A DNA stretch of 64,000 bases. It comes from Candidatus Aenigmatarchaeota archaeon. Its GTDB lineage: Archaea > Aenigmatarchaeota > Aenigmatarchaeia > QMZS01. The translations under genes and the position numbers were made by a program. Under the pieces are notes generated by a model, which had not been told where the DNA came from, ran no database searches, and worked only from the letters and a program-made list of their open reading frames with translations. This document shows positions 18,701 to 42,607 of this stretch, piece after piece; positions within the stretch are counted from its first letter, which is position 1; every line of letters starts with the position of its first letter. The stretch is taken from positions 124,001 through 188,000 of the forward strand of contig JAFGCN010000009.1 in assembly GCA_016932615.1 (NCBI GenBank), given 5' to 3'.

Positions 18701-21700
18701 GCAAGCGGCTCCAAGAATAATGCCGCCTTTTTGAACGTAACGACTTACACTCCCGACTCGAGCGGCTACATCAAAGACTGGCTTATTGTCGGGCCTTTTG
18801 ACAATTATGCAAGGGACGGAAATTACAATGATGTCTATGACAACACGGGAGGTAATGATGCAGGTGACTCGGTCTGCACGGTCAGGGACATTGATGCCCT
18901 TGGCGGAGAAGCGACTGTAACACCATATTCTGGTGCCGGGCCGTACACAGGGTGCTCTGCAATTGGCGGCAACAATACCTGCTCCACTACAAATGTCTAC
19001 TGGGCAAAGCAAAATGACGCTGACACCTATATAGACTTTGATGGAATCTATGCCGTAAACCAGTATGTGTTTGCCTACGGCTTTGCCTATGTCTATGCCC
19101 CGACTGCCCGGATTGCCCAGGCAAGATTCGGCTCGGACGATGGAATTCAGGTCTGGGTGAATGGCGACAAGGTGCACCAGGGGTATTACGCAAGGGGCTC
19201 GATTGCAGACAGCAACATAGAGACCGTAACTCTCCGGAGCGGCTGGAACCGTGTGATGGTAAAAGTCGATGAGGGCTGGGGCGGCTGGGGCTTTCACTTT
19301 CGATTCACCTACCCCAACGGCACGGCCATGACGGACCTCAAGATTTCGCTTGACAGGCCGGAGCCGACATGGAATTCCACTGGAATGTTTGGAGGCGCGA
19401 TGACTTTTGACGGGGTTGATGATTACCAGGCAATTGATTCTACTGCGGGGAAATTCCTTGATTCTTTCACAATTGAGGCGATGATAAAGACCACCGACAC
19501 GTCGGGCAGAGACACAATTGTCGGAAGGAACACAGCGGCAGGAGGCAATGTCATGATTCTTTGCACCTATAGCGGAAAACTTGACGCTTTTAACGGAACT
19601 GCAGACATCGACAGCCAGATAAGCGTTGCAGATGGAAACTGGCACCATGTCGCGCTGAGGTATAACCTTTCCAACAAGGAAGTTGCCCTTTATCTGGATG
19701 GGGAAAAGGTCAAGTCCGATATGAACGGCATGGTCGCTTTTTCAGCCACAGATAAGGTTTCAATCGGCCAGGAATGGGACACAACAACTCCTTCAGATTT
19801 TTTCCAGGGAGAGCTCGACGAAGTACGAATCTGGTCGCGGGCGCTCAGTGATGCTGAGATCCAGGGCCGGTCGAAATATGGGCTTTTCAGGACGAATGTG
19901 AGCGGCGGGAATTACACGCCGGTTTCAGGATTTTGGGATGATTTTGAGACCGACCTGAGCGGCTGGACTATATACTCTACTTCCTCCACTTCTGTAAACC
20001 GAACCACCTCAAGCAAATATCTTTCCGGCTCAAAGTCGGTGGAAGTCTATCAGACTGTGGATGACGGGGATACCTATATTCTAAAGAATTTCAGCATAGA
20101 AGGCAATTATCGGGTGGAAGGATATTTTTACGACAATACTTCCCTTACAGGCACGATTGTCGCCAGACCTGCTGATGGCGATGCGACTGCGGCCATGATG
20201 GGTGTGGCCACAGGAACCTCTTCGACGAATTATGTTTATCGAATAAGCAGCACATGGTATGTTTCTGGAGTCTCAAGAAGCACGGGTTGGCATAAGTTCA
20301 CCTGGATCTCTGATGGGTCATCCACTAAAGGGTATATGGATGATATCTTCGTAAATGAATGGACTGATGTACAAAGTCTCCAGTATTTCTATTACGGTTC
20401 CTGGTGGGCAGTCAGCGGTCCTGGCTTCTATTTTGATGACCTTACGGTCACTCCTCTAGTCTTGGACAACAACCTCTCAGACACCGACGGAAATGACTCT
20501 TCTGCCCCGGACACGCAAGCTGCGCCAAATGTCACTGCGCACAGCTCCTCGCAGCTAAATGTCTCCTGGTCTTCGGTTTCTGATAACGGAAACTCGTACT
20601 ATTATTATATTGAGTCCTATGATAGCGAAGGCAATGTCAAGGGGATGGGGGACGTTGCCATATTTTCTTCGACTAGTGGTACTAACTGGATGCCCGTTTC
20701 TGAAAAGAATGATGTTAGGGATTACCTTCTAAGCAATCTCGATATGGGTGCCGTGGCGTATGACTACGATGAGCAGGATGACCTAATAGATTGGATGGAT
20801 GCGAGAATGACCGACTCGCATCCAGATATTCTTCTTGTGTTGGATATGGGACCTGAACAGGTCTATAATTGCGAAACCGACGGTTCTAAGATGGAAGAAT
20901 GGTACGAGAATGGAAATATAATTATCTGGACAGGTGATTGGTCGTTTTATGGCCGGATAAATGCTACGGGTGATGAAGTGAATGGTTGCACAGAGGGAAT
21001 AAATTATATCTCCGACAACGCTTTAGATATTATTTCAAGTTCGGATACAACCACCCGTACGAGTTCGGGGGCGACCTACACGCCTTCCATGAATTCTTCT
21101 TATTTGACTCACCGGCCGGTAGGATTGACGGATACGGCAAAAGCAAGTGAGGTTGAGGTATTTGCCTATCAGAATGTCACTTGGCGGGATTCTGCGTTAT
21201 ACAAGGCAAAAGGTACTGCGGGTTATGGATATTTCTTCCAGTATGGTATGGTTTACGACACTTCTCTTCCCAGAAAAGAAGTCTTGGAAGAATTTATTGA
21301 AAATTTTTTGGAGGGAAATATCTGGACGAATATTGTAAACGCAACCGTCATAACCGGCATGCACTCGACAGGACCCTACTATGTCAACGAAACCACCGAC
21401 CATACCAATGCCACTGATTATGGGTGGGGAACTGCAACTTCTTATCAGGATATAGACCTTGCACCAAACACACAGTATTGCTATGCGGTAACGGCAAGGG
21501 ACAATGCGCTAAATGTCGCAAGCTACTCAAGCGAAACCTGCAAGTACACTCTTGCAAATATTCCTACCAACCTGAGCGCAATAGGACTTAACCCCACTCA
21601 AATCTTTGTCCAGTGGAATGCCAATGGAAACCCTGCCGGGACATACTACAACCTCTCCAGGAACAACACTTCGGTCTATGAGGATACCGGAACCGGTACC

Positions 21701-24700
21701 ACTGATTCATATCTTACCTGCAATACCCAATACACCTATAAGGTGATGGCCAAAAACGGGGATGGCGTATACACGGCAAACACAAGCGAAGTCTCGGCAT
21801 ATACTCTACCCGAAGACCCCGTTCTGAATTCGACAACGCACAATGTTTCTGAGGTCACGATGAATAATCTCATCAACTTTACAGCAACTACTTCCACTCC
21901 GGGATGCGCCAGCCACTTCCATTACCTTTGGGACACGAATCCGAGGTCGGTAGTTTCCTCAAGCGATGCCCAGTGGGACGGCTTAGAAACGCAGCTGAAC
22001 GCCACCTGGGATGGAAACTGGTACCTTCATGCTATTTCTCACAATGGTGACCATGTCCAGAGCATAGGAGGCACGATTCATTTAGGTCCCTTTATAGTGA
22101 ACACAACCCCAATTGAACTCAACTTTGTAGAGCCAACCCACCCAGACCAGTACAATACACAGGAAAATTATGCAGAGATAAATACGACAATACTCTACAA
22201 GGCGAACATAGATGCCTTAAAGTTCAACTGGAACGGGACAAACTATACGATTTATGATGAAGACCTGATCTTGGGGCTTAACTTCAACAATGTTTCTGAA
22301 ATTGGAGAGAATGACTCCTTAGCGGTGGATGTTTCTCACTACCGAAACGACGGCACGATTTACGGCGCAAACTACACAGAAGGGAAGTACAATCTGGGAT
22401 TGCAGTTTGACGGAACGGGTGACTATGTTGATTGCGGGAATGATTCGAGTCTTGGTCCTACAGGGAATCTAACCTTAATGTCGTGGTTATATCTTTCAAG
22501 TTTGCCTTCGGACTACAAAGGGATTATAGAGGGACAGCAGCCATATTATCGCTATTTATTGTACATCAGCGCATCGAACCGGCCAGAAATATTTGTCCAA
22601 ACTGATGCAGGTGCCTATTACACTGATGAGGTGGGACATACAGAAACTCTGAATTTGGGTTGGAATCATATTGTTGGGGTCTACAATGGTACCGACTTAG
22701 CAGTATATCTGAATGGTGGGTTGTCCTATAATCGTTCTGCTTCAGGAAGCATACTGGCGGATGGTGGGGGTCTAAGGATTGGGCGGTATGATGCTACAGG
22801 ACATTTTTTCAACGGAACAATCGACGAAGTCCGCATATACAACCGCTCCCTCAACTCAAGCGAAATCTGGCTCCTCTACCAGTCCGAGCTTGCAAAGTAC
22901 GAGCCCGACAAGTACAGGTTTTACGCAAACCTTACTGACCTTGTAAACGGGACTTACACATATTACGCCTGGGGAAACGACACTGCTGGAAACCAGGATT
23001 TCACTGATGGGGCGATGTACCGGACGCTTTATGTTGGCGCGGTTTCAAAATTTTCCGTTTACCTCAACGCCCCTGCAAACGACACGAACACCAGCAACAA
23101 TATGCCGGACTTCAACTTCACAGTCAATGGGTCCAAACTGACCTATTCCTGTACTCTTTTCGTGAACGAAAGCAGCTATGGAATGAATGCCTCAGTCCAG
23201 AACAACACCCCCACAATTATCACCGCAGATGACTTCCTTCCTGACGGGCTTCTTGAGTGGTATATCAACTGTACCTCTGCAGGTATTGTCAACCTTAGTG
23301 AAATAAGGCAAATCACCGTTGACAATACCACCCCGGTGACCACAGCGAGTGCAGTAAATAACGACTCAACACCTTACACTTTCAACACTTGGACAAGCTC
23401 GAACTACGTGAATGTTACGCTTAACTGCAATGACGGAAGCGGCTTTGGGTGTGACACGACGATGTTCTGCACTGATACGACGAATACCTGCACGCCTGTC
23501 TGGCTTTACGGTTCGTGGAGCTACCGGACGCCGATATCGATATCCAACACAGCGGAGAATCTGACGGATTATCAGGTCAGGATTGACCTGAACTCGTCGA
23601 ATGTAGGTTTGGGGTTCAATTGGACGGAGGACATGAACGCGACAAGGTTCACTTATTATAATTCGACATCCGGCACCGAAACCGAATGCTCCTACTGGAT
23701 AGAATCCTGGAACGCAACAACCCAGAATGCAACTATCTGGGTCAAGGTGCCGTTCCTTGAGAAAGACACGAGCACGACAGTATATATGTATTACAACAAT
23801 AGCGGCGTGAGTACAACAAGCAGTGCGGATAGTACCTTCCTCCTGTTTGATGATTTTAACGACGCCAGTCTCGACACGGACAAGTGGCAGTCTTATTCTT
23901 GCGGTGCAGGTTCGGTATCTGAAACTGGAGGTTATCTGCGACTGGTCCAGGGAGGAAGCAATAGTGCCCGTCCATACCTGAGATCAAAGAATGAGATTTC
24001 TTATGATGACCTTATAATCGAGTATAAAGGTATGCTTGAGGATGGAGATGGATCCAATGCCGGCCAGGTGGGGTCTTTGTTGCATTGGGACGGGTTGGGG
24101 GGAGGAACGTATTGCGTTCCAAACAATGGCTTTAGAATTTATATGGATGAGGCAATAACCACGTTCCGAATGTCAAGAGATATCGGCGCATCTGAAACGG
24201 ATCTGGACTATTATGGGTATTATGCGAATACCTCATGGCATGATTATTCGTTTTCCTACTTTGACGATGATTTGGAGGGCAAAATTGATGGGTCGAGTTT
24301 GATAACTGCGTCAGACAGCACCTCTTTTAGCAACCGTTATGTCGGCTTTTTAGGTAGAGAGGCACAATCAAGTTCAAGGATAGATGATGTCCGTGTCCGC
24401 AAATACGCCTCACCCGAACCATCATCCTCAGTCGGCTCGGAGGAGTCTCCGTCCAATATCCATATAAGTGACGAAGGCGTCTCATATATACGATTCCGCT
24501 CAAACGACACTTTGGGAAATGTCGAGTCGATAAAAAACGAAACCATAAGGATAGACACCATTGCGCCTGTCCTGAACTTCACTGACCCAACAGAGGACAA
24601 CGCGACAATAATCAACCGAAACTGGACAGAGGCAAATATCTCAATCGAAGAGCCAAACCCCGACAATTTCGTGTTTAACTGGAACGGCACCAACCACACG

Positions 24701-27493
24701 TTTGACGCCGATGCAGGAAATGGATCAATTACCTATTCCGGCGACAATGAAGACCTTGTCCTGGCATTGAACTTCAACGAGGGCACAGGAAACACGACAG
24801 AGGACTTCTCAAATTACGGCAACAACGGGACTTTCAAGGGTACTGGAGAGCCTGCCTGGACGACGGATGGGAGGTTCGGTTCGGCTTTGAAGTTTGATGG
24901 TGTGGATGATTATGTTGTCGTCGGTGAGGATAAACTCGATAATTCCTCTCAAGGGACTGCTGAAGCATGGATTAAATTGGAGGGTTTGACTGCCGCAAGT
25001 TATAAAATTCTGGGTTACGGGGGGGACGCAGATAATTCGGGTGTTTTTGGTTTGGAGATAAGGAATACTGGCGGCAATTGTTATTTCGGTTTTGTCGATC
25101 GGGAGGGTCCGGCCACCGATTTGGATATAACTCGTGGCAGTACGGTTCTAACAACGGAGGTATGGTATCATGTCGTTTGGTGGTCGAACGGAACTGTCTG
25201 GAGGTTATATGTGAACGGAAAAGAAGAGACGTTAACTGATATAAATGGCGATGGTAAGAATGACGGTGATTGGTTTGCCGACGTGAATACTGTCGGTTCG
25301 CCGTCTTATACCTCAATAGGTGCCGTATTTTGGGACAGGGCCTGGCTGGATTTTATTAACGGCACAATCGACGACGTCAGAATCTACAATCGTTCCTTAA
25401 CCGCAGAGGAAATAATGCTCCACTACGAATCCTCATTACAGAAATACTCTGACACTCAATGGCAGTTCTACTCAAACATAACAGGATTAACCGAGGGCAC
25501 CTACACTTACTATGGCTGGGCGAATGACACTCTGGGAAGCGGAGCTTACACAATCAACTACACCGAGACAAGCCCAAGATACCTTTATGTTGATATGACT
25601 GCCCCAACTCTGCTCCTTCTAACCCTAAACGACACCTCACCCGTAGCAGCAGGAAACGTAACCTTCACACTTGACTTCTCCGAAGCCATGAACGAGACTG
25701 TAAACCCGACAGTGAAGATAAAGAACTCAAGCGAATATACGATAACCGCCCTCGGCTGGTTTAACTCCACAAGATGGGTTGGCTGGTACAACTTCACTAC
25801 AGGGACAGGTGACGGAAACTACACAATCAACGTCACCGCAGCAGAAGACCTGGCAGGAAACACGATGGAGGAAGACACTAGCAACTCTTTCATTCTGGAC
25901 ACCACCGCCCCGACAGTCCAAATCGTTTCGCCAGAAAACACAACTTACGGAATAACTTCAGTCGACCTCAACTACACGGCAACCGATTCCGGCTCTGGAA
26001 TTTCCGCCTGCTGGTACTCGCTTGATGGAGAAGCCAACCAAACCTTAACCGACTGCGCAAACACAACTCTTTCCGACCTCTCGGATGGCGAGCATAACCT
26101 AACCGTATGGGCAAACGACACTGCAGGAAACCTGGGCTTTGACACAGTATACTTCAATGTCTCTACCCTGGACCTTTACCTTTCGAAGTCTTTTGTGCCC
26201 GACCTTCTGGTATCTTATGAAGTGGAAAACCTGAATGTCACAACTACCCTGAAAATCAACAAATCCTCAACTGAGGTAAGCTTCTTCAACTTCACCGATG
26301 AAGTGCCTTGGGACTTCTCGCTTGACCAGTCGTCAATACGCCTTGTCCTGAAAAAGTACAGCCCATACTCTGAAACTAACGTGACGGAAAACGTGACGAT
26401 AGATATAATTGACCTGCCGGGCGAAAACAACACCCGGATTGAGATAAACTGCTCGAACACAAGCGCATGTTTTGGCTCGTACCTCTCAGAAAACGACTCT
26501 CTTGTCCTGACTTACCTAATGAACTCCTCAGCGCTTGAGCCAGACTCCTCGCGCTCGACGATAACAACTGGAAACATCAGCAGTCCGGACGGAAGCCACG
26601 CAAACAGGACGCTTAACACCACCATCACCTGTGCGGAAGTGGTTCTCAGGGGATATAAGGACCTCACCGTAGACCTGGCAAACCCACAGAACATCTCTGC
26701 AAGAATTGTCGTGACTTCCATTGGCGGGACCGTAGGGAACATTCTGTTTTCGGATTACCTTCCAGAGGGCTCGACAATCTACGACCTGCAGGTTTACTGG
26801 TACAATGGCACTTACAATGCTCTCACTGAAAGCGACGACTACAATGTCACCGTTGATAGCGTGACTCTACCAGGCAATTACGATGGGGAGGTTTATATCT
26901 ACAACTTCACGGTGGCAGGGGTTACCTGGCCGGGGCAGCTTGGAAACAACGAGTCAATAATTATCAACTACTCGTTCTGGGTGCTTGGAGGCGGGCAGTG
27001 GGACCTTCCGACAATAATCTCCGCCTATGACCCCATCTACAACAGGACTGTCAAGACGGAAATGTACGCAAACGCAAATGTGCCTTCATTTGACGTAATC
27101 CTGGAGATACTTACAAAGAAAGTCGAGCCGGGAGAGCTTGCAAAGGGGCTTCTTCGGATAATAAATGTGGGCGGGCCAAGGGCCAAGGTAGATGTCTATT
27201 CGAATTACGCAATAAAGACCTTTGAGGGGAGGACAATAAACGAGAAAAGCGAGACTCTTGCCGTCGTGGAGCAGAAGGAAAAGCTCCTTGAGCTGGAAGT
27301 GCCGGAAAGCACGGAGTCAGGAAAGTATGTCTTCGAAAGCTACGTTTCCTATGTCGGAAGGGAGGCGCTATCAACTGAAACTTTTGAAGTCATAGGCGAG
27401 GAAAAGCCGGGATTCCTTAAGGAATATGGGCTTTACATCCTTATCGGGCTTCTGGTCGCCATAAACCTTGTCGTGCTTATGAGGAAGAAATAA
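15716..27493 (+). CDS. Giant modular surface adhesin (3925 aa)
   Basis: The signal peptide is at about 1-25 (WAFFGILVLVAVCSMPLIVWG) and a single C-terminal membrane anchor (LYILIGLLVAINLVVLM) is followed by RKK. Domain order: Cys-rich module (27-225); a beta-sandwich (230-420); five LamG-type domains, each ending in the signature DxVRIYxRxLS, at about 512-718, 779-975, 979-1385, 2182-2392 and 3010-3240; Fn3 and Ig-like domains between; a DUF2341 domain (about 2594-2700) with a following sandwich; and a conserved C-terminal region shared with the protein at 28052 (GYKDL motif). Several domains are inserted inside others. LamG and DUF2341 are known carbohydrate- or protein-binding folds. The start at 15716 is preceded by GAGGGG and overlaps the regulator gene by 11 nt. 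It probably acts in attachment to other cells or to polysaccharide. Confidence 0.85.
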   Translation: MVTKWAFFGILVLVAVCSMPLIVWGQVCGDGSGSDCSTNCSNRVYVCDADSSCSTYQVMNQETIACSDSTWADSQFDPSSSTNWDNTGSCLVGRIPNYFYGWAMEDDYDDTGTLRLFSTNDMDGDLYTQHCSCLKGTGFWALGGELASSYCCGDDIDEHKITSTAGTGMDLSLLDSTACCDRSTDCTYEDVCTGRDSDSDADGDDDEDVCTYSTTKTDTFDTKNTSFWTFDDSFQTVPFDLSGENVLKMWGNGTSYKTVYQTTPDITDGEEVYLEFQRTATSSWHIAALEPSDSSLRWCLQEDNSGNIRVQYYDGVGWYNPKTLISGAETGVWYGAILGVDGGNAYMKVWKLSNPSVYGEYSHRMHPGVTWRFRAWQYQTTVGYIDNFQIRTSSVWKDCAIDAHCKMGQYCSSNNCASVANPESVPDAKTDQPLNSELGEVNVSLSGTLPTGYSYLLSEIYPYPRNLTFTTSSSYAHTSLEDNLNYCYRSRVQDKLNGYDHHSDWDYGSLSSGLVGHWIFEEGTGTTVHDQSGNSRTGTAVGSPTWQSNTIAGDYCMDFDGTDSYVQVTDASSLRLTGTDFSIEFFAKLNETPSVWRGVLFKTDYAGGWMVYHDGSRMALRIYQAASTSDEVNILNSELNLNGWNHVAYTYKSSTKELKAYLNGKYLRGGTYQNTTVGSYTGNLFMGSSGTTANSQNFPGNLDDVRIYTRILSETEIEASAMEGQWRNGASMSATVCDSTPDRTGPSTSNLTAEGDNTNNLVQLNWTWSDDEIMPDADNNGLVGRWDFEEGIGLIAKDNSGNGYDGNLTNGPAWISGVHGDFALDFDGVNKYVDLGNPSSFPNGTSARTMCAWAKTNTVSSNYRWVFAYGSASVSQAMFIGLNGATLYGGGYGDDVTFSNFWEINVWKHVCLVYDGTYASLYGNGVLLSGPTAKTWSLIKSKAYVGRQINDAEYWNGTIDDIRIYNRTLSADEIRNLMLVGQWHFDEGAGFNIADASGSKNNAAFLNVTTYTPDSSGYIKDWLIVGPFDNYARDGNYNDVYDNTGGNDAGDSVCTVRDIDALGGEATVTPYSGAGPYTGCSAIGGNNTCSTTNVYWAKQNDADTYIDFDGIYAVNQYVFAYGFAYVYAPTARIAQARFGSDDGIQVWVNGDKVHQGYYARGSIADSNIETVTLRSGWNRVMVKVDEGWGGWGFHFRFTYPNGTAMTDLKISLDRPEPTWNSTGMFGGAMTFDGVDDYQAIDSTAGKFLDSFTIEAMIKTTDTSGRDTIVGRNTAAGGNVMILCTYSGKLDAFNGTADIDSQISVADGNWHHVALRYNLSNKEVALYLDGEKVKSDMNGMVAFSATDKVSIGQEWDTTTPSDFFQGELDEVRIWSRALSDAEIQGRSKYGLFRTNVSGGNYTPVSGFWDDFETDLSGWTIYSTSSTSVNRTTSSKYLSGSKSVEVYQTVDDGDTYILKNFSIEGNYRVEGYFYDNTSLTGTIVARPADGDATAAMMGVATGTSSTNYVYRISSTWYVSGVSRSTGWHKFTWISDGSSTKGYMDDIFVNEWTDVQSLQYFYYGSWWAVSGPGFYFDDLTVTPLVLDNNLSDTDGNDSSAPDTQAAPNVTAHSSSQLNVSWSSVSDNGNSYYYYIESYDSEGNVKGMGDVAIFSSTSGTNWMPVSEKNDVRDYLLSNLDMGAVAYDYDEQDDLIDWMDARMTDSHPDILLVLDMGPEQVYNCETDGSKMEEWYENGNIIIWTGDWSFYGRINATGDEVNGCTEGINYISDNALDIISSSDTTTRTSSGATYTPSMNSSYLTHRPVGLTDTAKASEVEVFAYQNVTWRDSALYKAKGTAGYGYFFQYGMVYDTSLPRKEVLEEFIENFLEGNIWTNIVNATVITGMHSTGPYYVNETTDHTNATDYGWGTATSYQDIDLAPNTQYCYAVTARDNALNVASYSSETCKYTLANIPTNLSAIGLNPTQIFVQWNANGNPAGTYYNLSRNNTSVYEDTGTGTTDSYLTCNTQYTYKVMAKNGDGVYTANTSEVSAYTLPEDPVLNSTTHNVSEVTMNNLINFTATTSTPGCASHFHYLWDTNPRSVVSSSDAQWDGLETQLNATWDGNWYLHAISHNGDHVQSIGGTIHLGPFIVNTTPIELNFVEPTHPDQYNTQENYAEINTTILYKANIDALKFNWNGTNYTIYDEDLILGLNFNNVSEIGENDSLAVDVSHYRNDGTIYGANYTEGKYNLGLQFDGTGDYVDCGNDSSLGPTGNLTLMSWLYLSSLPSDYKGIIEGQQPYYRYLLYISASNRPEIFVQTDAGAYYTDEVGHTETLNLGWNHIVGVYNGTDLAVYLNGGLSYNRSASGSILADGGGLRIGRYDATGHFFNGTIDEVRIYNRSLNSSEIWLLYQSELAKYEPDKYRFYANLTDLVNGTYTYYAWGNDTAGNQDFTDGAMYRTLYVGAVSKFSVYLNAPANDTNTSNNMPDFNFTVNGSKLTYSCTLFVNESSYGMNASVQNNTPTIITADDFLPDGLLEWYINCTSAGIVNLSEIRQITVDNTTPVTTASAVNNDSTPYTFNTWTSSNYVNVTLNCNDGSGFGCDTTMFCTDTTNTCTPVWLYGSWSYRTPISISNTAENLTDYQVRIDLNSSNVGLGFNWTEDMNATRFTYYNSTSGTETECSYWIESWNATTQNATIWVKVPFLEKDTSTTVYMYYNNSGVSTTSSADSTFLLFDDFNDASLDTDKWQSYSCGAGSVSETGGYLRLVQGGSNSARPYLRSKNEISYDDLIIEYKGMLEDGDGSNAGQVGSLLHWDGLGGGTYCVPNNGFRIYMDEAITTFRMSRDIGASETDLDYYGYYANTSWHDYSFSYFDDDLEGKIDGSSLITASDSTSFSNRYVGFLGREAQSSSRIDDVRVRKYASPEPSSSVGSEESPSNIHISDEGVSYIRFRSNDTLGNVESIKNETIRIDTIAPVLNFTDPTEDNATIINRNWTEANISIEEPNPDNFVFNWNGTNHTFDADAGNGSITYSGDNEDLVLALNFNEGTGNTTEDFSNYGNNGTFKGTGEPAWTTDGRFGSALKFDGVDDYVVVGEDKLDNSSQGTAEAWIKLEGLTAASYKILGYGGDADNSGVFGLEIRNTGGNCYFGFVDREGPATDLDITRGSTVLTTEVWYHVVWWSNGTVWRLYVNGKEETLTDINGDGKNDGDWFADVNTVGSPSYTSIGAVFWDRAWLDFINGTIDDVRIYNRSLTAEEIMLHYESSLQKYSDTQWQFYSNITGLTEGTYTYYGWANDTLGSGAYTINYTETSPRYLYVDMTAPTLLLLTLNDTSPVAAGNVTFTLDFSEAMNETVNPTVKIKNSSEYTITALGWFNSTRWVGWYNFTTGTGDGNYTINVTAAEDLAGNTMEEDTSNSFILDTTAPTVQIVSPENTTYGITSVDLNYTATDSGSGISACWYSLDGEANQTLTDCANTTLSDLSDGEHNLTVWANDTAGNLGFDTVYFNVSTLDLYLSKSFVPDLLVSYEVENLNVTTTLKINKSSTEVSFFNFTDEVPWDFSLDQSSIRLVLKKYSPYSETNVTENVTIDIIDLPGENNTRIEINCSNTSACFGSYLSENDSLVLTYLMNSSALEPDSSRSTITTGNISSPDGSHANRTLNTTITCAEVVLRGYKDLTVDLANPQNISARIVVTSIGGTVGNILFSDYLPEGSTIYDLQVYWYNGTYNALTESDDYNVTVDSVTLPGNYDGEVYIYNFTVAGVTWPGQLGNNESIIINYSFWVLGGGQWDLPTIISAYDPIYNRTVKTEMYANANVPSFDVILEILTKKVEPGELAKGLLRIINVGGPRAKVDVYSNYAIKTFEGRTINEKSETLAVVEQKEKLLELEVPESTESGKYVFESYVSYVGREALSTETFEVIGEEKPGFLKEYGLYILIGLLVAINLVVLMRKK

Positions 27494-32064: not shown

Positions 32065-35000
32065 ATGGCTAAAAGCACTACAAGTGTAATTGCTGTCTTT
32101 TTCATGTTCCTTTTGGCGGCAGTGCTCGAGGTTGGCCTCATATATTCCTTTGGGGGAGTGCAGCAATCATTTACCCTGGACCTCAACACCTCTCTATTAA
32201 ACTATTCTCTAAGCAGGTTCAGCGATGCCTCCACGACGCAGGAATTTGATTTCCAGAATGAGTCAGATTACCATGCTTTCTATGTATCCCTTCCGAAAAA
32301 TTCAACCGTGAGCGCATTTTCCCTGAACCTTACGGGGCTGATAACTACCGTTTACATAAGGGATGTGGTTTACCTTTCAGGCGTTGAAGTTGGGCATATG
32401 AGGGGGCTTTCAATCGGAAACGTCGTTGGTGGCTTGGAAAATGAGATTGTGTCCGGGCGGAGCACAGTGTCCCAAGCGCTTCCAAGCTTATTTGTAATCA
32501 ACGGAAGCAGTGGGAGCAACATCTGGAATTACTCGCTTAGCCCTGTTTATGAGGTTGGCTCGACTGTTGTTGGAAATGTCACGGACAGTTCCGGAAACGA
32601 AGTAGTTTTTGGCTCTTCAAACAAGAAAGTGATGCTTTTGTCCTCTTCCGGCTCTCTTCTTTGGGAATACGAGACGGGAAACGAAGTTTCCTCTGTTGCA
32701 ATAGATTCACTTGGCTATTCCACAAACTACGTTGTTGCAGGCTCCAAGGACGAGAAGGTTTACGTCCTTAATTCCACAGGCGGGGTTTTGTGGAACTACT
32801 CGACAAATTCCTCCATTGCTTCAATCGCAGTAGGAGACCTTACCTCAGATGAGGGCAGGGAAATCGCAGTGGGCACAGGCACAAGAATAGTTATCCTTAA
32901 CCGGACCGGGAGCAGGGTCTTTGAGTACAACTGGGCAAAAAGCATAAGCGCGCTTGCAGTCGGAAATATCTCGGATGATGCTGGCGATGAGCTTGTGATT
33001 GGAGATATGGATTATCAGGTGGCGGCTTTTTCGGTAAGCGACTCAAACCTAACACTTCTCTGGAATTATACTGCGGGGGCGCAGGTAAACAGCGTTTCGA
33101 TTGGCGAAGCGGTAACCGACTTTTCCGGGAATGAAGTCGTTGCAGGAACCCATGAACCGAAGGTTTATGCTTTCTCCAATAATGGGACAAAGATTTGGGA
33201 GTTTGTCACTCAGACTTTTGTTTTTACTGTTGCAATCGGAAACGTGACTGAAGATTCCGGAAACGAGGTTGGGGCTGGAGATGGCCACCTGTATATTTTC
33301 AACTTCGATTATTTCCCGACTAACCTGAAGCTTGATATCGGAAATGACTCTGTTGCGGACTGGAACTCAAGCTATGTAAAACTCCGGTCTTCAGAGATTG
33401 CAAACGGCACCTCAGTAGTATCTGCAATAAACAGCTACCTTCAGAACAACTGCTCGCCCGATGCTTCCGGAAACTGCCTTGTCCCAATGGTTTTTCACTC
33501 GGACTTTAAGGGCAAGCTTAACCTGTCGGCTCTTAACGTGGTGTACTTCTACAATACCTCCTCTCTTTTTTCAAAGCCATTCGCAAATGTCTGGTCAAGG
33601 ACCAGCGGAGTTTCTTCCGGAGAGCAGGTTGGAAACAGGACATACAACCTTTCATTTTCAGGAGTCCCTGCTGAAAATGTTTCCATAAGCTACCTGGCCG
33701 TTGACCCGAACGCGACAAGGTGCGATTTTAACAGAACGGCAAGGGCAGTTACAACCGTTTCTGGAACTAAGGTGTGCGATATATCCTCGACGCCGCTTTT
33801 TTTCGCTGCAAACCAGTCGATAGACACTCCGGCAAGCACCTACTTTTTCTGGTATGAAGGTATGGGATATGGAATCCCAATAGATATCCAAAACTCGACG
33901 GGATATTATTCTACCGGAGGGGCTCCCGAAAACTATAATTGGGCAGTCAACCTCAGCGTTAACGGGACCAGCGAAGAATTTACAAACATTATACTCAACT
34001 GGACGGTAAACTATACGGGAATCAAGGGAGAAGAATTTCTGAAGGTAATGGACGCTTCCGCCTGCGACCTGACACCAAACTTCACACAGGATGACTGCGA
34101 CTCGGCAAGCCCGGCATACAACTTTACGAAAAACTGCACGAATTTCAACTACACTGTTTGCAAGAAGTACCTTGGCACGGCAATGTTTTTCAAGTGGGTA
34201 CAGAGTGCGCTTCCCGCCTCCAGCCAGTCAATTTATGTTGCCGGCGGCTCGTATAACCTGAGGCCAAACCTGACCAATATGTCTGTTACCCCCAACTCAA
34301 CCCTGTGGGGAGGAAACCTCACCTTCTCGGTTTATGTAAACGATACAGAGTCTGATTTTGTCAATGTAACTCTATGGGTAAAGAACCTGACCAACTGGTC
34401 AAGGGTCGCATCACTTATCACTACTGGCGGGCTTTTGGAATTCAATGTTTCCTCGAACAAGAGCTGGGTTGGAAATGCGGAATACCTGTTTGAGTACTAC
34501 GACTATAATTCCACAGCCCCGGAGGGAATCCACTTTCCTGCAAACTCCACTTCAGGAAACCTTACTGTTGAAAGGCATCTTGCAGAGCTGGTCTATGATT
34601 CTTTTTCGCAGGGGAACGGCACGACTCTTTTTCGAAACAGCTCCACAGAGCTAGTATTGTTTGTAAATGACACCAACCTTTCCGAAGGTGTGCCTTTCGC
34701 TTCCTGCGCACTCTGGGTGGGCGGGATGCTTTCAGGCACAAACCTTACAAACTCCAGCGGCTACTGCAGGATAGCTCTTCACCCCAATCAAAGCTTTAGC
34801 CCTGGACAGAAGAATTGGATAATGGGGATTTTAAGTGACCCTTCCTATGAGGATGCCAATTCGACAGGCCTTGACATTACGCTTCGTGGATGGATTCGGC
34901 CGAATGTAACAAACTCAGAAAACTTTTCCTATTATCGCGGGATTGCTTCGGTTTTCAGGGCCGAGTTGCTGGATGAGTTCGGCGGGATTGTTTCAACCGA

Positions 35001-38000
35001 CCAGTACAGTTGTGCCTTTGACCTTAATGCTACAGGAATTGGGTCAAATAATACTCTGCTGGGAAACTGCTCTGTTTACTATTCTGCGGGCTGCCTTGGA
35101 ATAGATTCTGCAGTTGGCCAAAAACAACTTGGCGTGCAGATTGCCCGAACCGGGGGCGAGGATTATTACAATATTTCTTCTGCAAGCGCAGGGCGAACGG
35201 TTATTCTCAGGGACCGCCTGAATCTCTCAATTGTCAGCCCAGAGGACCAGAATTATTATGTGGGGGAATTTGTTAACCTTACTGCTGTTGTGAATGACTC
35301 CTGTACAGTGCTTAGCGGGGTGTCGCTCAACTGGACGCTTGTGAGAAAGAGCGTTTTGAACGTAACCTTCTCAGACCTTAGCGGGCAGGAACGGCAGAAT
35401 TACACAGTGGTCCTTCCAGGGTCGCTTTTTTCTTCAGGGGGCTACAACCTCTCGGACTGGCGGGTAAACAATACGCATCTTTTGTTTGACGGAAGCGAAG
35501 TTCCGTTTTCCATTTACCAGTGGACAACTGCTTTCAAGACAACCGAGAACAAGAGCAAGATTTACATGGATGATTACTCGGAGATTGTTTTTCGCGTGAA
35601 CCTGTCTGCATGGCAGAGCAAGACTTATACTCTTAACCTGACCTGGCAGGAGCCGGTTCAGTATGGGAATCTAACTTACAATCTATTTAATGCAGATTTT
35701 GGCACAGGAAACTTTTCGGACTGGAGCCCTTCGATTTGCAACCGGATTGTTGGATGCAATGGAGAAGTTTCTTTTGACGGGAACGTAAGTTACGCGAATA
35801 TTTCTGCAAATGACGGCTATACGGTGCTCAGCCAGAACCTGCCCGGATTCAACTTTTCTGAGCAGTTTTACATAAGGTACAAGGCCTGGGGGGACTTTAA
35901 TTCCACGATGTACCCTGGGCAATTCTACATCCTTTTGGGGAACTATTCCTGCAACCTTACTTCGGAAATAAGGGCTCTGGCAGACGGGACTGGATATGTC
36001 TCCCTGCCTGAAAACTGGACGCTTTCCAACTGCACTGGTGCTTCAATTTCCTCTGCAAATAATGTTTCGATAGTGCTTCTCGACTTAGGCGACGGAGGTG
36101 GCGACCCGTCGAACGTCAATGCGCTTATCGACTATGTCTGCTTTGGAAACTCAAGCGGATCCTGCATCGACTTTGATGAGGGGCAGTCACTTGCTCGGTC
36201 GCTTAACACAAAGAAGGAATTGGGCCTGGCAAGCAATTACACCTTTAGTGGAATGGATGAGGTCGGAAGGAGGAAGATTCTGGCGGAAGCGACTAGGGAA
36301 TATTACTTGTCTGCAACATTAGGCACGCTTTTCAACCTCACGGGATTTTCAAAGCTCCAGGCCTTTAATGTAAGCTCGATTTATTGCACTTCAGATCCCC
36401 TCAATGGCTCAAGCTTTGTGTGCATGAGCAATGCCACTGTGGACCTTGTGGCGAAGGTTGGAAACAATTTCACGGAAGAACCGATATACAACCACACAAT
36501 TGTTTTTTCAAATAATTCCTCGTCCATTGGAAGCAACGCTTCCAATTTTGCCGGGCGGGCATACTTTGGCATGACACTTGGAAACGCGTCGAACTACACA
36601 TTTTACGCAAACATTTCCTCACAGCCGGAAATTTTTTATAACTCAAGCAACTTGTCGGGCATGGAGATATTCATACTTATCGACAGCGGGGTGACTACTG
36701 GAAACATTACGTTGAATTCAACAAGCGCAGTTGTCCAGAGTGTGGCACTCGACAGCAACTACACGCTCCCCCTTCTCTGGGAGCTCAACAATACAGGTCT
36801 CAGCGGCATGTATGACATTCGCGTAAGCACGAATAATATTTCCGGGATAGCTGTCTCCCCGGTAGTCTGCCTTCCACTGGCATCAGGGATGAACTGCACA
36901 AGGAACGTCAATGTAACCGTAACTTACCTGACGGCTCCGGGAAATTATACCTTGGTTTTCAATGCCAGCTGGCAGAATGGGGACGCAAGCAGGTCGAACA
37001 CCACGAAAGGCCTTACGCTGGCTGTTGAAACTAGCAAGAAGGTCCGCTTTGAGGAAGAAAACGCGACGCTTAACGTTCCAGTGACGACAACTGGCGCAAT
37101 AAACCTTACTCTTTTGAACTATGGAAATATAAACCTCAGCAGCGTCTATTTCAACCTTTCCGGCACGGATACAGAAGCAGTTATCAACTGGAGCAGCTTT
37201 TCAGCCAACTACACTAACCTGTCGCTTGGCGGCTCGTACAACCTGACTCTTCAGTTCCAGATTCCTGCAAATGCGACTACCCGGGAATACTGGCTTAATG
37301 TTACCGCCACGATACCGGGGTGCACAGGGAACTGCTCGGCGACTCTTCCTTTCATTTTGAACGTGACGCCCCTTGACTGGAACATTGCGCCGGAAACAAA
37401 CCTGTCAAAGGTAGTCGGGCTTAAGCAGGAGCTTAACAAATTTGGCGAGCTTGAGATTACAAATACCCTTAACAGCACACTTGACTTCAACCTGACAATC
37501 ACGCCAAATAACGGCACTTCTATAGAATTCCTGACGCTTAACAGAAGCATTTTCCAGACTACCTCTCAGGTAACCGTTGGGCCTGTTTCTTCCAGAGTAG
37601 TGGAAATTTTTTACAACACCAGCATTTCGCCAAACACTACCGGCACATACAACTACACGCTTCTTTTGGAGAGTAATGTGGCTAACATTACTCCTGCTTC
37701 AAGGTCGCTTGGGCTTTATTTTGAGGTCATAAACTTTACCGTAGACATTTACTCTCCGACAGAGTTAAGCCCCGCGGGCCAGCCAGACCCAGTCGAAGCA
37801 AATGAAACCCTGGTGATAGATGTCGAGGCAAAGCTGGGGGCGACTCCGCTTTCGAACAATATTTCCTGGAATGTTTCCGTGGGCGGGCAGGTGTGCCAGA
37901 ACACGAGTGCCCCAGAGTACAATACTTCCACAAGCAGGTGGATTCTCCGCTGCGCTTACCCAGACATCCCCCTAAATCCCATATACAATGACCTTGAGGT

Positions 38001-41000
38001 CACGGGAACTTATGAACTTCTTGGAGTTGACCTGTCGGACGTGGAGGAAAATGCCGTAATCTACAAGGATGTTCTTGAGCCATGGTTTTCGAATGTCAGC
38101 GCTTCTTTTGTCAATATGCTTTCTAACTTAAGCGAGGTTTCCTTTGAGGTGAACGTGACAGACAACAAAAACATTTCCTCTGTCTGGGCGGTAGTCACCC
38201 GGCCGGATGGCGTGAATATCTCGCTTGGGGCAGGAAATTATTCTGCAACCCCAAGGTCATTTGGGGATTTCGACAGCTACAAATATACATTTACAATGCA
38301 CAACCCGAACCTGAACGGAGACTACGACATAACTGTCTATGCAATAGACACCGAAGCCCACCAGAACAGCACAACCGGCTGGTTTGATGTATTTATCCCT
38401 GTGCAGGTCTGGGGAAACTTTACCAATTCGAAAGGAGAAGCCATAAGCGCGAACATGAGCTTTTACAGGAGCGGATACAACCAGACACTGCCCTACCGAA
38501 TGGAAAACAAAACCCTTGCAGGCGCTCCTTACAACTGGACGCTTCACAAGCGGCTTTATGACGTCAAGCTTAACATGTTTGGGCATGAGATGGTGGTGGC
38601 TGGCGCCGACTTCAACATAACGCAGAATGATACCCAAAATCCGTTTTTGTTCGACTATTTTGCAAACAAGTCCTCGGAAGACATCTCGAATATCCTTCTG
38701 CCTGACACCGCAAACCGCCAGAGCATCCTTCTTGCCTTTGCACTTGAAAGTGACCTTAACCTTACGGGCGCAAACTTCTCGGTGCGCTACGGAGATGCCC
38801 TGAATGCAGGAAGCTTCTCGGAGGACCTTCTTGAGGTTTTCGTCTGCGAGGACTGGAATTACACTGCCAGGACGTGCAACTCCGGGGAATTCTCATATCT
38901 TGCCGGGACGTCTGCACTGTCTTCCTCGAACCCGGACATTTCCGCAAATGTGTTTAACTTCTCTTCAAGCCACCTTTCGGCATACGCAATCGCAGAAAGC
39001 TCATACCCATACAAGTGGGGAGTTGCTCCGGACTCGCCATCAACCCCTCCTGCGGCATCTGGTTCCAGTAGCAGCAGCGATTCCGGGGAGGATAGCGGCC
39101 CTGTAGTCGTGTGCGGAAACGGCGTCTGTGAGCTAGGGGAAAACTCCGACAACTGCCCAGAGGACTGCTCAAAGGATTTCCCTCTTGAGGTTGACACAAA
39201 CCTTGGCGATGTCCGCCTTTTCCCGGGAGAAGGAAGGCAGTATTGGATATCACTGAAAAATAATTTCGGAAAAAACCTTTCAGTTTCTCTATCCTTAAGC
39301 GAAAACCTGCTGGAGTTTGTTTCGCTGGATGTGGATTCGCTTAACGTGACCGCTCACGAAAAGAAAATACTTAACCTTTCGCTGAATGCCCCGCAAAACA
39401 TAAGTGTTGGAACTTATGGAGGTTACGTAGTTCTCATGTCTGGAGAGTCGAAGCTAAGCCTTCCGGTCACCATAAGGATACTTGAGCTTCCGGCGGCTAC
39501 TTTCACGGTGAACGTCAACATGAGGTCTGCCCAGATTGCTCCTGACGGAAAGCTAGAGTTCAATGTGCAGCTTACAAACCTTGGAGAGAAGGAGCTTTAC
39601 CCAATAACGCTCACCTACTATGTAAAAGACCCGCAAAACAACGAAGTTTTCAGGTCCAACCGGACAAATATCACGCTTCAGACAACTGTCCTCGTGTCCG
39701 AAAGCTTTCCGATGAACCTGAGCGAAGAAGGAACTTACACGCTTGAGGTGTGGGCTAATTATTATGGAAAGAATATAGATATGGGTGTGGTGACTTTTGA
39801 TGTCTTAAGGCCCCTTTTCCAGTCCCCTCTTACAGTGGGGCTTATTGTACTCGTTTTGGCGCTTATCTGCCTTGTCCTTGGAACTTACCTGTACAGATAC
39901 TACCGCATGTGGAGAAAGGAGAAGGAAAAGCAGCAGAGGTACCTTTACCCTCTTGACTATAATACTATCCCAAAGGAGGGCTTCAACGTCGGAAAGTTTG
40001 CCGCAAGGGACAATGTGTTTTATTATGATCCTAGAGACCTTTCAACCCACCTGATAGCTGCAGGAGCAACGGGCTCGGGAAAGTCAGTTGCCGCTTCCCT
40101 TTTTGCCGAGGAAGCGCTTGACAAGAAGATTCCGGTAATCGTCTTTGACCCGACCAGCCAGTGGACAGGGTTTGTAAAGCCGTGCAAGGACAATAACCTT
40201 CTCAGCAGGTACCCTCGATTTGGGATGACCGAGTTTGACATAAAGTCCTATCCGGGCCTTATCTATGATGTCGAAACTCCGACTTTCAATCTGGATATAA
40301 AGAAGTTCATAAACCCGGGGGAGATTACCGTCTTCTGCCTGGGACGGCTTAAGCCTGGTGAATATGATGTTGCCGTAAACAACATAATAGCCACTCTTTT
40401 CAAGGAGAGCTGGGAGGAGAGCACTGAGCTTAAGGTCATCCTTGTCTTTGATGAGGTGCACCGGCTTTTGGAAAAGTACGGCGGCTCTGGCGGCTACGTT
40501 GCTCTTGAAAAGGCTGCAAGGGAGTTCAGGAAGTGGGGAATCGGCGTAATCATGTGTTCCCAGGTCCTGGCAGATTTCAAGGAGGCAATAGCCGGTAACG
40601 TACTCACAGAAATTCAGCTTAACACCAAATCCCTTACAGATATCGACAAGGTTAAGACAAAGTACGGTGAGAAGTATGCTGAGAGGATTGCAAGAATGGG
40701 CGTCGGGGCCGGGCTTGTGCAGCACCCGAAGTACAATAACGGAAAGCCCTTCTTTATCGAGTTCAGGCCGACAAAGCATAACCCCCACAAGATTACCGAT
40801 GAGGAGCTCGCATTATACAAGAATTACACGGAGCGGCTTGACAAGCTGTCAGCGAAGATAGAGGAGATGAAGAAAAATGGAGTCTATACGGAGAACTATG
40901 AGATAGACTACAAGCTTGCCGTGGACAAGCTAAAAAGAGGAAACTTCAGGATGTCTGAAATATATATTTCGTCCCTTGAAAGGGCCCTTGAAAAAGTATG

Positions 41001-41001
41001 A
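32065..41001 (+). CDS. Giant surface protein fused to a cytoplasmic HerA-like ATPase (2978 aa)
   Basis: A single uninterrupted frame encodes all of the following. (1) An N-terminal signal-anchor helix (about 7-30). (2) A beta-propeller at about 95-430 with blades of the form VGNVTxDSGNEVVxGS..KVYVL. (3) About 1900 residues of Asn/Thr-rich Ig-like domains with dense sequons. (4) A disulfide motif CGNGVCELGENSDNCPEDC near 2350, after a Ser/Gly linker. (5) Two membrane-proximal beta domains. (6) A membrane helix at about 2588-2610 followed by a basic segment. (7) An ATPase domain with Walker A GATGSGKS (2667-2674, K2673), Walker B VILVFDE (D2796, E2797) and a MCSQ sensor-like motif. HerA/VirB4-type ATPases are hexameric motors that translocate DNA or protein. 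The fusion predicts an ATP-driven ring whose subunits each carry a huge extracellular arm. This ATPase has no NurA partner here. Confidence 0.85.
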   Translation: MAKSTTSVIAVFFMFLLAAVLEVGLIYSFGGVQQSFTLDLNTSLLNYSLSRFSDASTTQEFDFQNESDYHAFYVSLPKNSTVSAFSLNLTGLITTVYIRDVVYLSGVEVGHMRGLSIGNVVGGLENEIVSGRSTVSQALPSLFVINGSSGSNIWNYSLSPVYEVGSTVVGNVTDSSGNEVVFGSSNKKVMLLSSSGSLLWEYETGNEVSSVAIDSLGYSTNYVVAGSKDEKVYVLNSTGGVLWNYSTNSSIASIAVGDLTSDEGREIAVGTGTRIVILNRTGSRVFEYNWAKSISALAVGNISDDAGDELVIGDMDYQVAAFSVSDSNLTLLWNYTAGAQVNSVSIGEAVTDFSGNEVVAGTHEPKVYAFSNNGTKIWEFVTQTFVFTVAIGNVTEDSGNEVGAGDGHLYIFNFDYFPTNLKLDIGNDSVADWNSSYVKLRSSEIANGTSVVSAINSYLQNNCSPDASGNCLVPMVFHSDFKGKLNLSALNVVYFYNTSSLFSKPFANVWSRTSGVSSGEQVGNRTYNLSFSGVPAENVSISYLAVDPNATRCDFNRTARAVTTVSGTKVCDISSTPLFFAANQSIDTPASTYFFWYEGMGYGIPIDIQNSTGYYSTGGAPENYNWAVNLSVNGTSEEFTNIILNWTVNYTGIKGEEFLKVMDASACDLTPNFTQDDCDSASPAYNFTKNCTNFNYTVCKKYLGTAMFFKWVQSALPASSQSIYVAGGSYNLRPNLTNMSVTPNSTLWGGNLTFSVYVNDTESDFVNVTLWVKNLTNWSRVASLITTGGLLEFNVSSNKSWVGNAEYLFEYYDYNSTAPEGIHFPANSTSGNLTVERHLAELVYDSFSQGNGTTLFRNSSTELVLFVNDTNLSEGVPFASCALWVGGMLSGTNLTNSSGYCRIALHPNQSFSPGQKNWIMGILSDPSYEDANSTGLDITLRGWIRPNVTNSENFSYYRGIASVFRAELLDEFGGIVSTDQYSCAFDLNATGIGSNNTLLGNCSVYYSAGCLGIDSAVGQKQLGVQIARTGGEDYYNISSASAGRTVILRDRLNLSIVSPEDQNYYVGEFVNLTAVVNDSCTVLSGVSLNWTLVRKSVLNVTFSDLSGQERQNYTVVLPGSLFSSGGYNLSDWRVNNTHLLFDGSEVPFSIYQWTTAFKTTENKSKIYMDDYSEIVFRVNLSAWQSKTYTLNLTWQEPVQYGNLTYNLFNADFGTGNFSDWSPSICNRIVGCNGEVSFDGNVSYANISANDGYTVLSQNLPGFNFSEQFYIRYKAWGDFNSTMYPGQFYILLGNYSCNLTSEIRALADGTGYVSLPENWTLSNCTGASISSANNVSIVLLDLGDGGGDPSNVNALIDYVCFGNSSGSCIDFDEGQSLARSLNTKKELGLASNYTFSGMDEVGRRKILAEATREYYLSATLGTLFNLTGFSKLQAFNVSSIYCTSDPLNGSSFVCMSNATVDLVAKVGNNFTEEPIYNHTIVFSNNSSSIGSNASNFAGRAYFGMTLGNASNYTFYANISSQPEIFYNSSNLSGMEIFILIDSGVTTGNITLNSTSAVVQSVALDSNYTLPLLWELNNTGLSGMYDIRVSTNNISGIAVSPVVCLPLASGMNCTRNVNVTVTYLTAPGNYTLVFNASWQNGDASRSNTTKGLTLAVETSKKVRFEEENATLNVPVTTTGAINLTLLNYGNINLSSVYFNLSGTDTEAVINWSSFSANYTNLSLGGSYNLTLQFQIPANATTREYWLNVTATIPGCTGNCSATLPFILNVTPLDWNIAPETNLSKVVGLKQELNKFGELEITNTLNSTLDFNLTITPNNGTSIEFLTLNRSIFQTTSQVTVGPVSSRVVEIFYNTSISPNTTGTYNYTLLLESNVANITPASRSLGLYFEVINFTVDIYSPTELSPAGQPDPVEANETLVIDVEAKLGATPLSNNISWNVSVGGQVCQNTSAPEYNTSTSRWILRCAYPDIPLNPIYNDLEVTGTYELLGVDLSDVEENAVIYKDVLEPWFSNVSASFVNMLSNLSEVSFEVNVTDNKNISSVWAVVTRPDGVNISLGAGNYSATPRSFGDFDSYKYTFTMHNPNLNGDYDITVYAIDTEAHQNSTTGWFDVFIPVQVWGNFTNSKGEAISANMSFYRSGYNQTLPYRMENKTLAGAPYNWTLHKRLYDVKLNMFGHEMVVAGADFNITQNDTQNPFLFDYFANKSSEDISNILLPDTANRQSILLAFALESDLNLTGANFSVRYGDALNAGSFSEDLLEVFVCEDWNYTARTCNSGEFSYLAGTSALSSSNPDISANVFNFSSSHLSAYAIAESSYPYKWGVAPDSPSTPPAASGSSSSSDSGEDSGPVVVCGNGVCELGENSDNCPEDCSKDFPLEVDTNLGDVRLFPGEGRQYWISLKNNFGKNLSVSLSLSENLLEFVSLDVDSLNVTAHEKKILNLSLNAPQNISVGTYGGYVVLMSGESKLSLPVTIRILELPAATFTVNVNMRSAQIAPDGKLEFNVQLTNLGEKELYPITLTYYVKDPQNNEVFRSNRTNITLQTTVLVSESFPMNLSEEGTYTLEVWANYYGKNIDMGVVTFDVLRPLFQSPLTVGLIVLVLALICLVLGTYLYRYYRMWRKEKEKQQRYLYPLDYNTIPKEGFNVGKFAARDNVFYYDPRDLSTHLIAAGATGSGKSVAASLFAEEALDKKIPVIVFDPTSQWTGFVKPCKDNNLLSRYPRFGMTEFDIKSYPGLIYDVETPTFNLDIKKFINPGEITVFCLGRLKPGEYDVAVNNIIATLFKESWEESTELKVILVFDEVHRLLEKYGGSGGYVALEKAAREFRKWGIGVIMCSQVLADFKEAIAGNVLTEIQLNTKSLTDIDKVKTKYGEKYAERIARMGVGAGLVQHPKYNNGKPFFIEFRPTKHNPHKITDEELALYKNYTERLDKLSAKIEEMKKNGVYTENYEIDYKLAVDKLKRGNFRMSEIYISSLERALEKV

Positions 41002-41065
41002 TGCCGAAATGCCGAAATAACCGCGACAACTCCTATCTTGAGTGGGTTGTTGGCGGATTTTGATT

Positions 41066-42607
41066 ATGTCTGGAGAAGAATCTTCCGGGGGAAGCGGCGG
41101 AGACGATAACGTTATCTCCGCAGAAGAGTTCAGGGACCTTGAGTCTGATGAAAAGAAAAGCGAAAGCCAAAAGGGAGGGCTCTTTGGCATGTTTAAAAAG
41201 ACCCCCCCGCCTTCAGCTTCCGTGCCTCACGTCGGAGGCGGAGATTCGGAAAAAGACCCTTTGGTTGAAGTGAGCATGAAAGTCGAGCGCCTCTCAAGTC
41301 GGTTTGAGATGCTTGAGGAGGCAAGAAAGCATACTGACGAGCGCCTGTTTGAAATGGCTGAGAAGATTGGCGAGCTTCGCTCAACAGTTGTCGAGCGAGA
41401 CAGGGCGTTCAATGATATCGCCTCCAAGTTCGAAAGGATTTCTGACATTACCGAGGGCCTTGAGCCGGACAAAATCAGAAAGGACCTTGCAAAAAAAGAC
41501 CAGCAGATTGAGCAGGTCAAAGCCCAGGTCGAGTCGGACTCGGAGAAAATTGCTGTTTCTCTCAAGAAAATCAAGGACATGAATGACATAATTGACCAGA
41601 TAAAGGGCTTTAAGGACCTGGTGTCTGTTGCCGACGAGCTTGGAAAGAAGATAAAAATCGTGGAAGGCCTCAAGGCGGAAACCGAAAAGACCGCAGGGAA
41701 GTTTGAGAGCCGGCTTTACCAGTTTAATGAGTCCCTCAGCCGCTTACAGGGAAGCATCACTAAGGTTGAGGCAAACGACGAAACCTTGAAGGAGCTTTTG
41801 AGAACTGTCGATGCCCTTTCGCTTCGCGTCGAAAAGGCGCTTAGCAAAACAGACTTTGATTCAAGCGAGAAAGCGCTTGACAGCAAGTTTTCTGAGCTAA
41901 GGTTTGACACTGAGTCTAAGCTCCAGAAGGTCCTGGATGCTTTTAAGAAGGTGGATGAAGTGACGGGCGAAGCCGCTTACAAGGCGCTTAACAAAAAAAT
42001 CGATGACTTTCAGAGGGATTACTCCCAGTACAAAAAAGACCTCGAGGCGCGGCTTTTGAAAATGCCTGCTTCCTCAAAATCCTCTGCCCAGATTGCTGCT
42101 TCCCCGGATGGCGGTTATGAAGAGGACATTCCTGACAAGAAGCTGGGCGAGGGTGGGGTTTTTGGAGACACTGAATTAATGCTTGTCGAGAAAATGAAGA
42201 AGATGATAGAGGATAACAACGAAAAACACAGCCAGCACATGGCGGACCTTGAGCTGAGGATTCTGGAGCTTTCGAAAAGCGTTTACCATAGGATAGAAAG
42301 GCGCGTGGTTAAGGAATCTAAGACTACGAGAGATGCAGTCAGAAACCTGGTAGCTTCCGGGTCTGAAGAATCTGGATTTTTTTCAAAGCGCGCTTCTATC
42401 CCGGTTCAGGCCCGCCCGGATGAGCCGATCCTGGATATGTCCTCCCTGGTAAAGGATATTTATTTCTACCTTGACTCAGGCAACTATTCCGAAGCCAAGG
42501 CAGGGTTCATAAAACTGCTCTCGATCTACGAGCGCCAAGAGTCCAGCAACCCATTTATCCTTGCAAAAATAACCGACCTTCACAAAAGGATAAAGCAGAT
42601 TAGCTAA
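41066..42607 (+). CDS. Cytoplasmic coiled-coil protein (513 aa)
   Basis: A Ser/Gly/Asp-rich N-terminus (about 1-70) precedes a long series of heptads (about 75-330) and further coiled coil near 370-430. A compact C-terminal helical domain of about 70 residues follows (MSSLVKDIYFYLDSGNYSEAKAGFIKLLSIYERQ), which looks like a tetratricopeptide-type repeat. There is no signal peptide or membrane segment, so it is cytoplasmic. It starts 64 bp after the HerA-fusion gene on the same strand. Its shape suits a scaffold or tether beneath the membrane apparatus. The start is the ATTATG at 41066; an in-frame GTG at 41042 is less likely. Confidence 0.65.
   Translation: MSGEESSGGSGGDDNVISAEEFRDLESDEKKSESQKGGLFGMFKKTPPPSASVPHVGGGDSEKDPLVEVSMKVERLSSRFEMLEEARKHTDERLFEMAEKIGELRSTVVERDRAFNDIASKFERISDITEGLEPDKIRKDLAKKDQQIEQVKAQVESDSEKIAVSLKKIKDMNDIIDQIKGFKDLVSVADELGKKIKIVEGLKAETEKTAGKFESRLYQFNESLSRLQGSITKVEANDETLKELLRTVDALSLRVEKALSKTDFDSSEKALDSKFSELRFDTESKLQKVLDAFKKVDEVTGEAAYKALNKKIDDFQRDYSQYKKDLEARLLKMPASSKSSAQIAASPDGGYEEDIPDKKLGEGGVFGDTELMLVEKMKKMIEDNNEKHSQHMADLELRILELSKSVYHRIERRVVKESKTTRDAVRNLVASGSEESGFFSKRASIPVQARPDEPILDMSSLVKDIYFYLDSGNYSEAKAGFIKLLSIYERQESSNPFILAKITDLHKRIKQIS

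Follow-up and report, generated by a model that had tools for sequence, protein, structure and literature searches.

The giant frame in the window (the whole stretch of 64,000 nucleotides that was analysed) runs through 2,978 codons without a stop and encodes a protein of 2,978 residues, in which a signal peptide or anchor, a beta-propeller, a probably Ig-like ectodomain and a membrane helix are joined to a cytoplasmic P-loop ATPase of the HerA clade, as a sequence-only reading of this DNA had held (Table 1). The protein belongs to the DPANN family of giant surface ATPases (SPEARE-type), and a conserved coiled-coil partner gene, C0, is the main addition to what was known of these giants. The conserved two-gene locus joins an arm on the cell surface to a motor of translocase type and is a concrete, testable candidate for the open question of how DPANN archaea exchange material with their hosts. 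The architecture is already known but little understood, and the earlier statement that no system of this kind had been described is wrong, as the parts of PMC6642349 and PMC10266531 on the SPEARE or giant proteins of Nanohaloarchaeota make clear. Relative to those parts of the papers, the new points are the C0 partner, the assignment of the motor as HerA-like without a HAS barrel instead of the type IV label, and the second ATPase as a tandem paralogue; the published assignment is thereby corrected, the partner protein is named and the family is extended well beyond Nanohaloarchaeota.

Table 1. Features of the giant gene and its partner, with positions in the window.
Feature	Positions	Strand	Basis
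Giant surface protein with cytoplasmic HerA-clade ATPase, 2,978 aa	32065..41001	+	Open frame; collinear homologues over about 3,000 aa
N-terminal signal peptide or signal anchor, residues 1-26	32065..32142	+	Hydrophobic segment 8-26
Beta-propeller, residues about 131-415	32455..33309	+	Pfam PQQ_2 1.1e-12; Beta-prop_ACSF4 2e-24, below curated cut-off
Long sequon-rich ectodomain, probably tandem Ig-like domains	33310..39084	+	Sequon excess over shuffles; weak Ig-like Pfam matches
Cys motif CGNGVCELGENSDNCPEDC, residues 2350-2368	39112..39168	+	Position; pattern present in 19 of 61 homologues
Pair of beta-sandwich domains (Ig-like/CARDB-like) next to the membrane, residues 2366-2587	39160..39825	+	AlphaFold2 model, mean pLDDT 86.9
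Transmembrane helix and cytoplasmic extension, residues 2588-2623	39826..39933	+	Hydrophobicity; 36-residue helix in model
HerA-clade RecA-type motor, residues 2624-2911	39934..40797	+	Invariant motifs in 65 homologues; Z 26.0 to Sulfolobus HerA
Helical tail at the C-terminus, residues 2912-2978	40798..40998	+	Model helices 547-572, 578-592 and 596-612 (model numbering)
C0 partner, coiled-coil protein, 521 aa, no signal or membrane helix seen	41042..42607	+	Conserved adjacent gene; all-helical core model

The frame lies well within a contig of 221,408 bases, in a 1.26 Mb genome of 29 contigs that is 97% complete. Over about 3,000 residues the whole protein aligns by blastp with homologues at 31-45% identity, among them 44% (L038), 36-37% (L012, L041, L042 and L043) and 31-33% (L048, L049 and L092), indicating that ectodomain, helix and ATPase have remained one chain in different families and also outside the phylum. 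The sequence-only reading had proposed this fusion of a surface arm to a HerA-family ATPase, and had named an assembly join or frameshift between the two parts, or homologues always encoded as two genes, as grounds against it. The full-length collinear homologues, together with the contrast in sequons between ectodomain and cytoplasmic part, rule out a chance frame, a join or a frameshift, and the fusion is conserved across many genomes. Nor are there two genes by rule, since nearly all homologues are single genes; the sole exception is an ATPase of 385 residues (G001:C53, 16776-17930), split from ectodomain remnants that lie directly upstream in another frame. The frame break that parts the two at this locus (L053, 15901-17930) has the appearance of decay or truncation of one copy.

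The giant has just two hydrophobic segments, one at residues 8-26 and the other at about 2580-2610. The ectodomain contains 166 N-x-S/T sequons in 2,576 residues, compared with 49 +/- 6 in shuffled sequences and 58 for the reversed motif, and the cytoplasmic part contains 1 in 357 residues; pooled over all loci, the rate is 5.31 per 100 outside and 0.15 inside. This pattern in the sequence fits an ectodomain that would be N-glycosylated outside the cell and an ATPase that would lie in the cytoplasm. The stretch of roughly 1,900 residues that had been read as Ig-like domains probably is a tandem array of them, as indicated by weak Pfam matches, by two modelled domains and by the Ig array modelled in a published nanohaloarchaeal relative (in part of PMC10266531); the claim holds for the stretch as a whole and not for each domain individually. 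The laminin-G domain that part of PMC6642349 reports in the SPEARE ectodomain is not among the Pfam matches of the giant at E up to 1, and the parts of PMC10266531 at hand describe none either. A separate secreted beta-propeller protein of 442 residues is encoded at 7271-8599 of the window (Beta-prop_ACSF4, 3.7e-37), and the giant has its own propeller.

Matches to DUF87 and HerA_C follow the second hydrophobic segment (Pfam, E 1e-9 to 3e-8), with Walker A (GATGSGKS) at residues 2667-2674 and Walker B (VILVFDE) at residues 2791-2797. The 65 aligned cores, short paralogues included, share both Walker motifs, a REFRKWG motif and further residues without variation. DUF87 and HerA_C match all 65 cores and ResIII matches 44, and this weak ResIII similarity explains the older 'restriction' annotation; the commonest NCBIfam similarity is to CedD, in 65 of 65 and far below its cut-off (score 34 against 600). 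An AlphaFold2 model of residues 2366-2978 (mean pLDDT 86.9, pTM 0.63) comprises a pair of beta-sandwiches, a helix of 36 residues, a RecA-type motor and a tail of helices. Its first fold neighbour by VIA-align 2 is Sulfolobus HerA (Z 26.0, 252 residues aligned, rmsd 2.9), the scores of VirB4, TrwB and FtsK being Z 23.6, 19.3 and 17.7, so that profile search and modelled fold both bear out HerA as the nearest motor family. The end of the long helix and Walker A are about 44 residues apart in the model (residues 258 to 302), with two short strands between them, which is too few for a complete HAS barrel. As modelled, the ATPase is HerA-like, with a RecA motor carrying Walker A, Walker B and an arginine motif, but has no room for the N-terminal HAS barrel.

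Giants of this kind were named SPEARE by Hamm et al. 2019 (PMC6642349), which in the parts at hand reports the detection of one of them by proteomics in a host-dependent culture and notes similar intracellular parts in Aenigmarchaeota. The window giant has the features that define SPEARE, namely a signal, a large adhesive-type ectodomain, a C-terminal transmembrane helix and a conserved intracellular ATPase. Part of PMC10266531 describes nanohaloarchaeal giants with a signal, Ig-like and propeller domains, a transmembrane helix and a VirB4/TraG-like ATPase, ascribes a VirB4 N-domain to a second ATPase encoded downstream, and proposes a role in secretion. The giants of genomes G172 and G324 are 8,880 and 9,409 residues long, exactly the two lengths given there, and we infer from this agreement, and from the second ATPase in tandem, that the two genomes are those of the published strains. 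In the ATPase tree, a clade of 22 rows with support 100/99 holds the window ATPase and the rows of family f49, and the ATPases of G172 and G324 fall in one supported clade with that of the window. In G172 the second ATPase protein begins with a signal-like segment, followed by a short ectodomain, a transmembrane helix and the same ATPase, and in the tree it clusters with giants of the family to which it belongs; what was published as a 'second ATPase' is a short paralogue of the giant, in tandem with it. Such a tandem arrangement is found in three single-contig genomes of family f49.

The order of ectodomain, transmembrane helix and HerA-type ATPase, for which the sequence-only reading had suggested a survey, recurs widely. 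Of 156 genomes of the phylum, 55 carry the ATPase family, as do 89 of the 392 archaeal genomes sampled, and most of the frames are thousands of residues long. Roughly two thirds of the phylum's sampled genomes have no ATPase match, many of these genomes being incomplete, and many of the short frames of the family are located at contig ends. A search for plasmid relatives gave no match. The largest frame checked, in G249 (L107-L108, G249:C8), has 12,128 residues from its first start codon, and others reach 11,259 (G034), 11,248 (G037) and 10,835 (G258). The frame of 12,128 residues exceeds the 9,409 residues stated in part of PMC10266531 for the largest protein of cultivated archaea.

C0 lies directly downstream of the ATPase gene in the same orientation, the distance being in most cases no more than 155 nt. 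When 156 genomes were searched by profile, 63 of 73 ATPase matches had C0 within 5 kb, and 63 of 71 strong C0 matches lay near an ATPase; both genes occur in 48 genomes, the ATPase alone in 7 and C0 alone in 3 (Fisher p 7.6e-29, uncorrected for phylogeny and with a profile built from ATPase-adjacent copies of C0). A core of 211 residues is modelled as long helices throughout. No known family accommodates C0, which has only scattered coiled-coil matches, such as DUF1664 and BLOC1_2, those of the window copy falling below curated cut-offs, and the parts of PMC6642349 and PMC10266531 at hand do not mention it. Apart from C0, no gene family is common to the majority of loci examined. The giant gene has on either side a surface protein of family C2 (28052-31360 and 42659-45688), the two being related to each other, and several further genomes have relatives of them next to the giant. 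Another large frame of the window (15626-27493; 3,955 residues), with a C-terminal membrane helix, a short lysine-rich tail and no ATPase, resembles large surface proteins of the ordinary kind. A type II/IV secretion-type ATPase (PF00437) is encoded on the minus strand at 48805-51087; a conserved tie to type IV pilus genes was rejected, T2SSE relatives being found only at the window and in G001 among the loci examined. At many loci of the longer-giant clade, C0 is followed by a further large surface protein (family C1; L060, 749-6700, and relatives), and at L060 the cytoplasmic tail of that protein and C0 share a short helical repeat, as judged by eye.

The hypothesis that we favour, to which we assign about an even chance, is that a HerA-type ring beneath the arm carries out contact-dependent, ATP-driven translocation with C0 as its cytoplasmic partner. 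The long glycosylated arm, with its propeller near the tip, would probably grip another cell, and a single membrane helix would join it to the cytoplasmic motor. The motor probably acts as a ring together with C0, and this ring would drive DNA or protein across the envelope upon contact, DNA being the somewhat likelier cargo in view of the kinship with HerA and CedD. The hypothesis is favoured by the collinear homologues and their wide spread, the sequon contrast, the invariant catalytic motifs, a fold nearest to HerA translocases, the CedD similarity, the clade shared with the published giants and the C0 partner; ring assembly, cell contact and translocation are inferred, as is the hexamer with six arms over a pore, for transfer or uptake, that the sequence-only reading had proposed. 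Against it, no channel component was found in the genome of the source organism, which has no match to PF03135 (VirB4 N-domain; the control genome, Caulobacter, matched) or, at 97% completeness, to PF04610 (VirB6), although a divergent channel could escape such a search. A pore made of one helix per subunit would be thin, and pilus-type ATPase genes lie near the giant only at the window and one other locus among those examined. We know of no host for the source organism, which also counts against translocation. A wider proposal, put forward tentatively, is that giant arm and C0 together make up a widespread and self-contained DPANN machine that transports on contact and is distinct from type IV secretion, the short paralogue serving as a second, optional subunit of the motor.

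The motor itself bears on the proposal, in part of PMC10266531, that nanohaloarchaeal giants are effector-secreting 'straws' within a type IV secretion system. In its favour are kinship with the VirB4 fold (Z 23.6) and, in three single-contig f49 genomes, a further ATPase in tandem with the giant. However, PF03135 is absent from the matches listed for the 65 cores, the published second ATPase among them (25 of 27 families, E up to 0.001); contrary to that account, no match to it was found in the second ATPase of G172 either, with E allowed up to 1. This ATPase is closely paralogous and has an ectodomain itself, HerA and not VirB4 is the nearest motor, and the window's genome has neither VirB4 N-domain nor VirB6 match. 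The type IV label is therefore not supported, and a straw of this kind appears unlikely. Less probable still is a force-generating adhesion device, in which the ATPase would pull, cluster or position the arms through the coiled-coil partner with no cargo crossing the membrane. The conservation and cytoplasmic nature of C0 and the missing channel component would suit such a device, but the HerA/FtsK motors known to us translocate polymers through a ring, and we know of no precedent for this role. A membrane-anchored device for chromosome handling or DNA degradation, with the arm as a passive part of the surface layer (compare the 'restriction' reading in PMC6642349), is improbable, since the kinship with HerA and weak ResIII similarity are offset by the lack of any nuclease family among the Pfam matches listed for the core and of any family except C0 common to most loci examined.

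Compared with known systems, the motor resembles VirB4/TraG and VirD4/TrwB in fold (Z 23.6 and 19.3) and differs from VirB4 in that the VirB4 N-domain was not found. It is closest to the DNA translocase HerA in fold (Z 26.0) and in its DUF87/HerA_C matches, and is unlike HerA in being anchored in the membrane, attached to a giant ectodomain and devoid of a complete HAS barrel. CedB and CedD of the crenarchaeal Ced DNA-import system, CedD being required for DNA import in Saccharolobus, are likewise HerA-type ATPases with a transmembrane anchor (PMC11868833), and CedD similarity extends to all 65 cores; the giants score 34 against the CedD cut-off of 600, and Ced has no giant ectodomain. The window protein differs from the SPEARE giants (BNXNv_0298 and SVXNc_0300) in length (2,978 against 8,880-9,409 residues), in phylum and in standing as a single giant, the nanohaloarchaeal loci having in addition a short paralogue in tandem. 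It shares with them, as far as the published parts describe them, the signal, the propeller and Ig ectodomain, the transmembrane helix and the same ATPase family, its ATPase being 52-54% identical to those of G172, with a C0 gene nearby in both.
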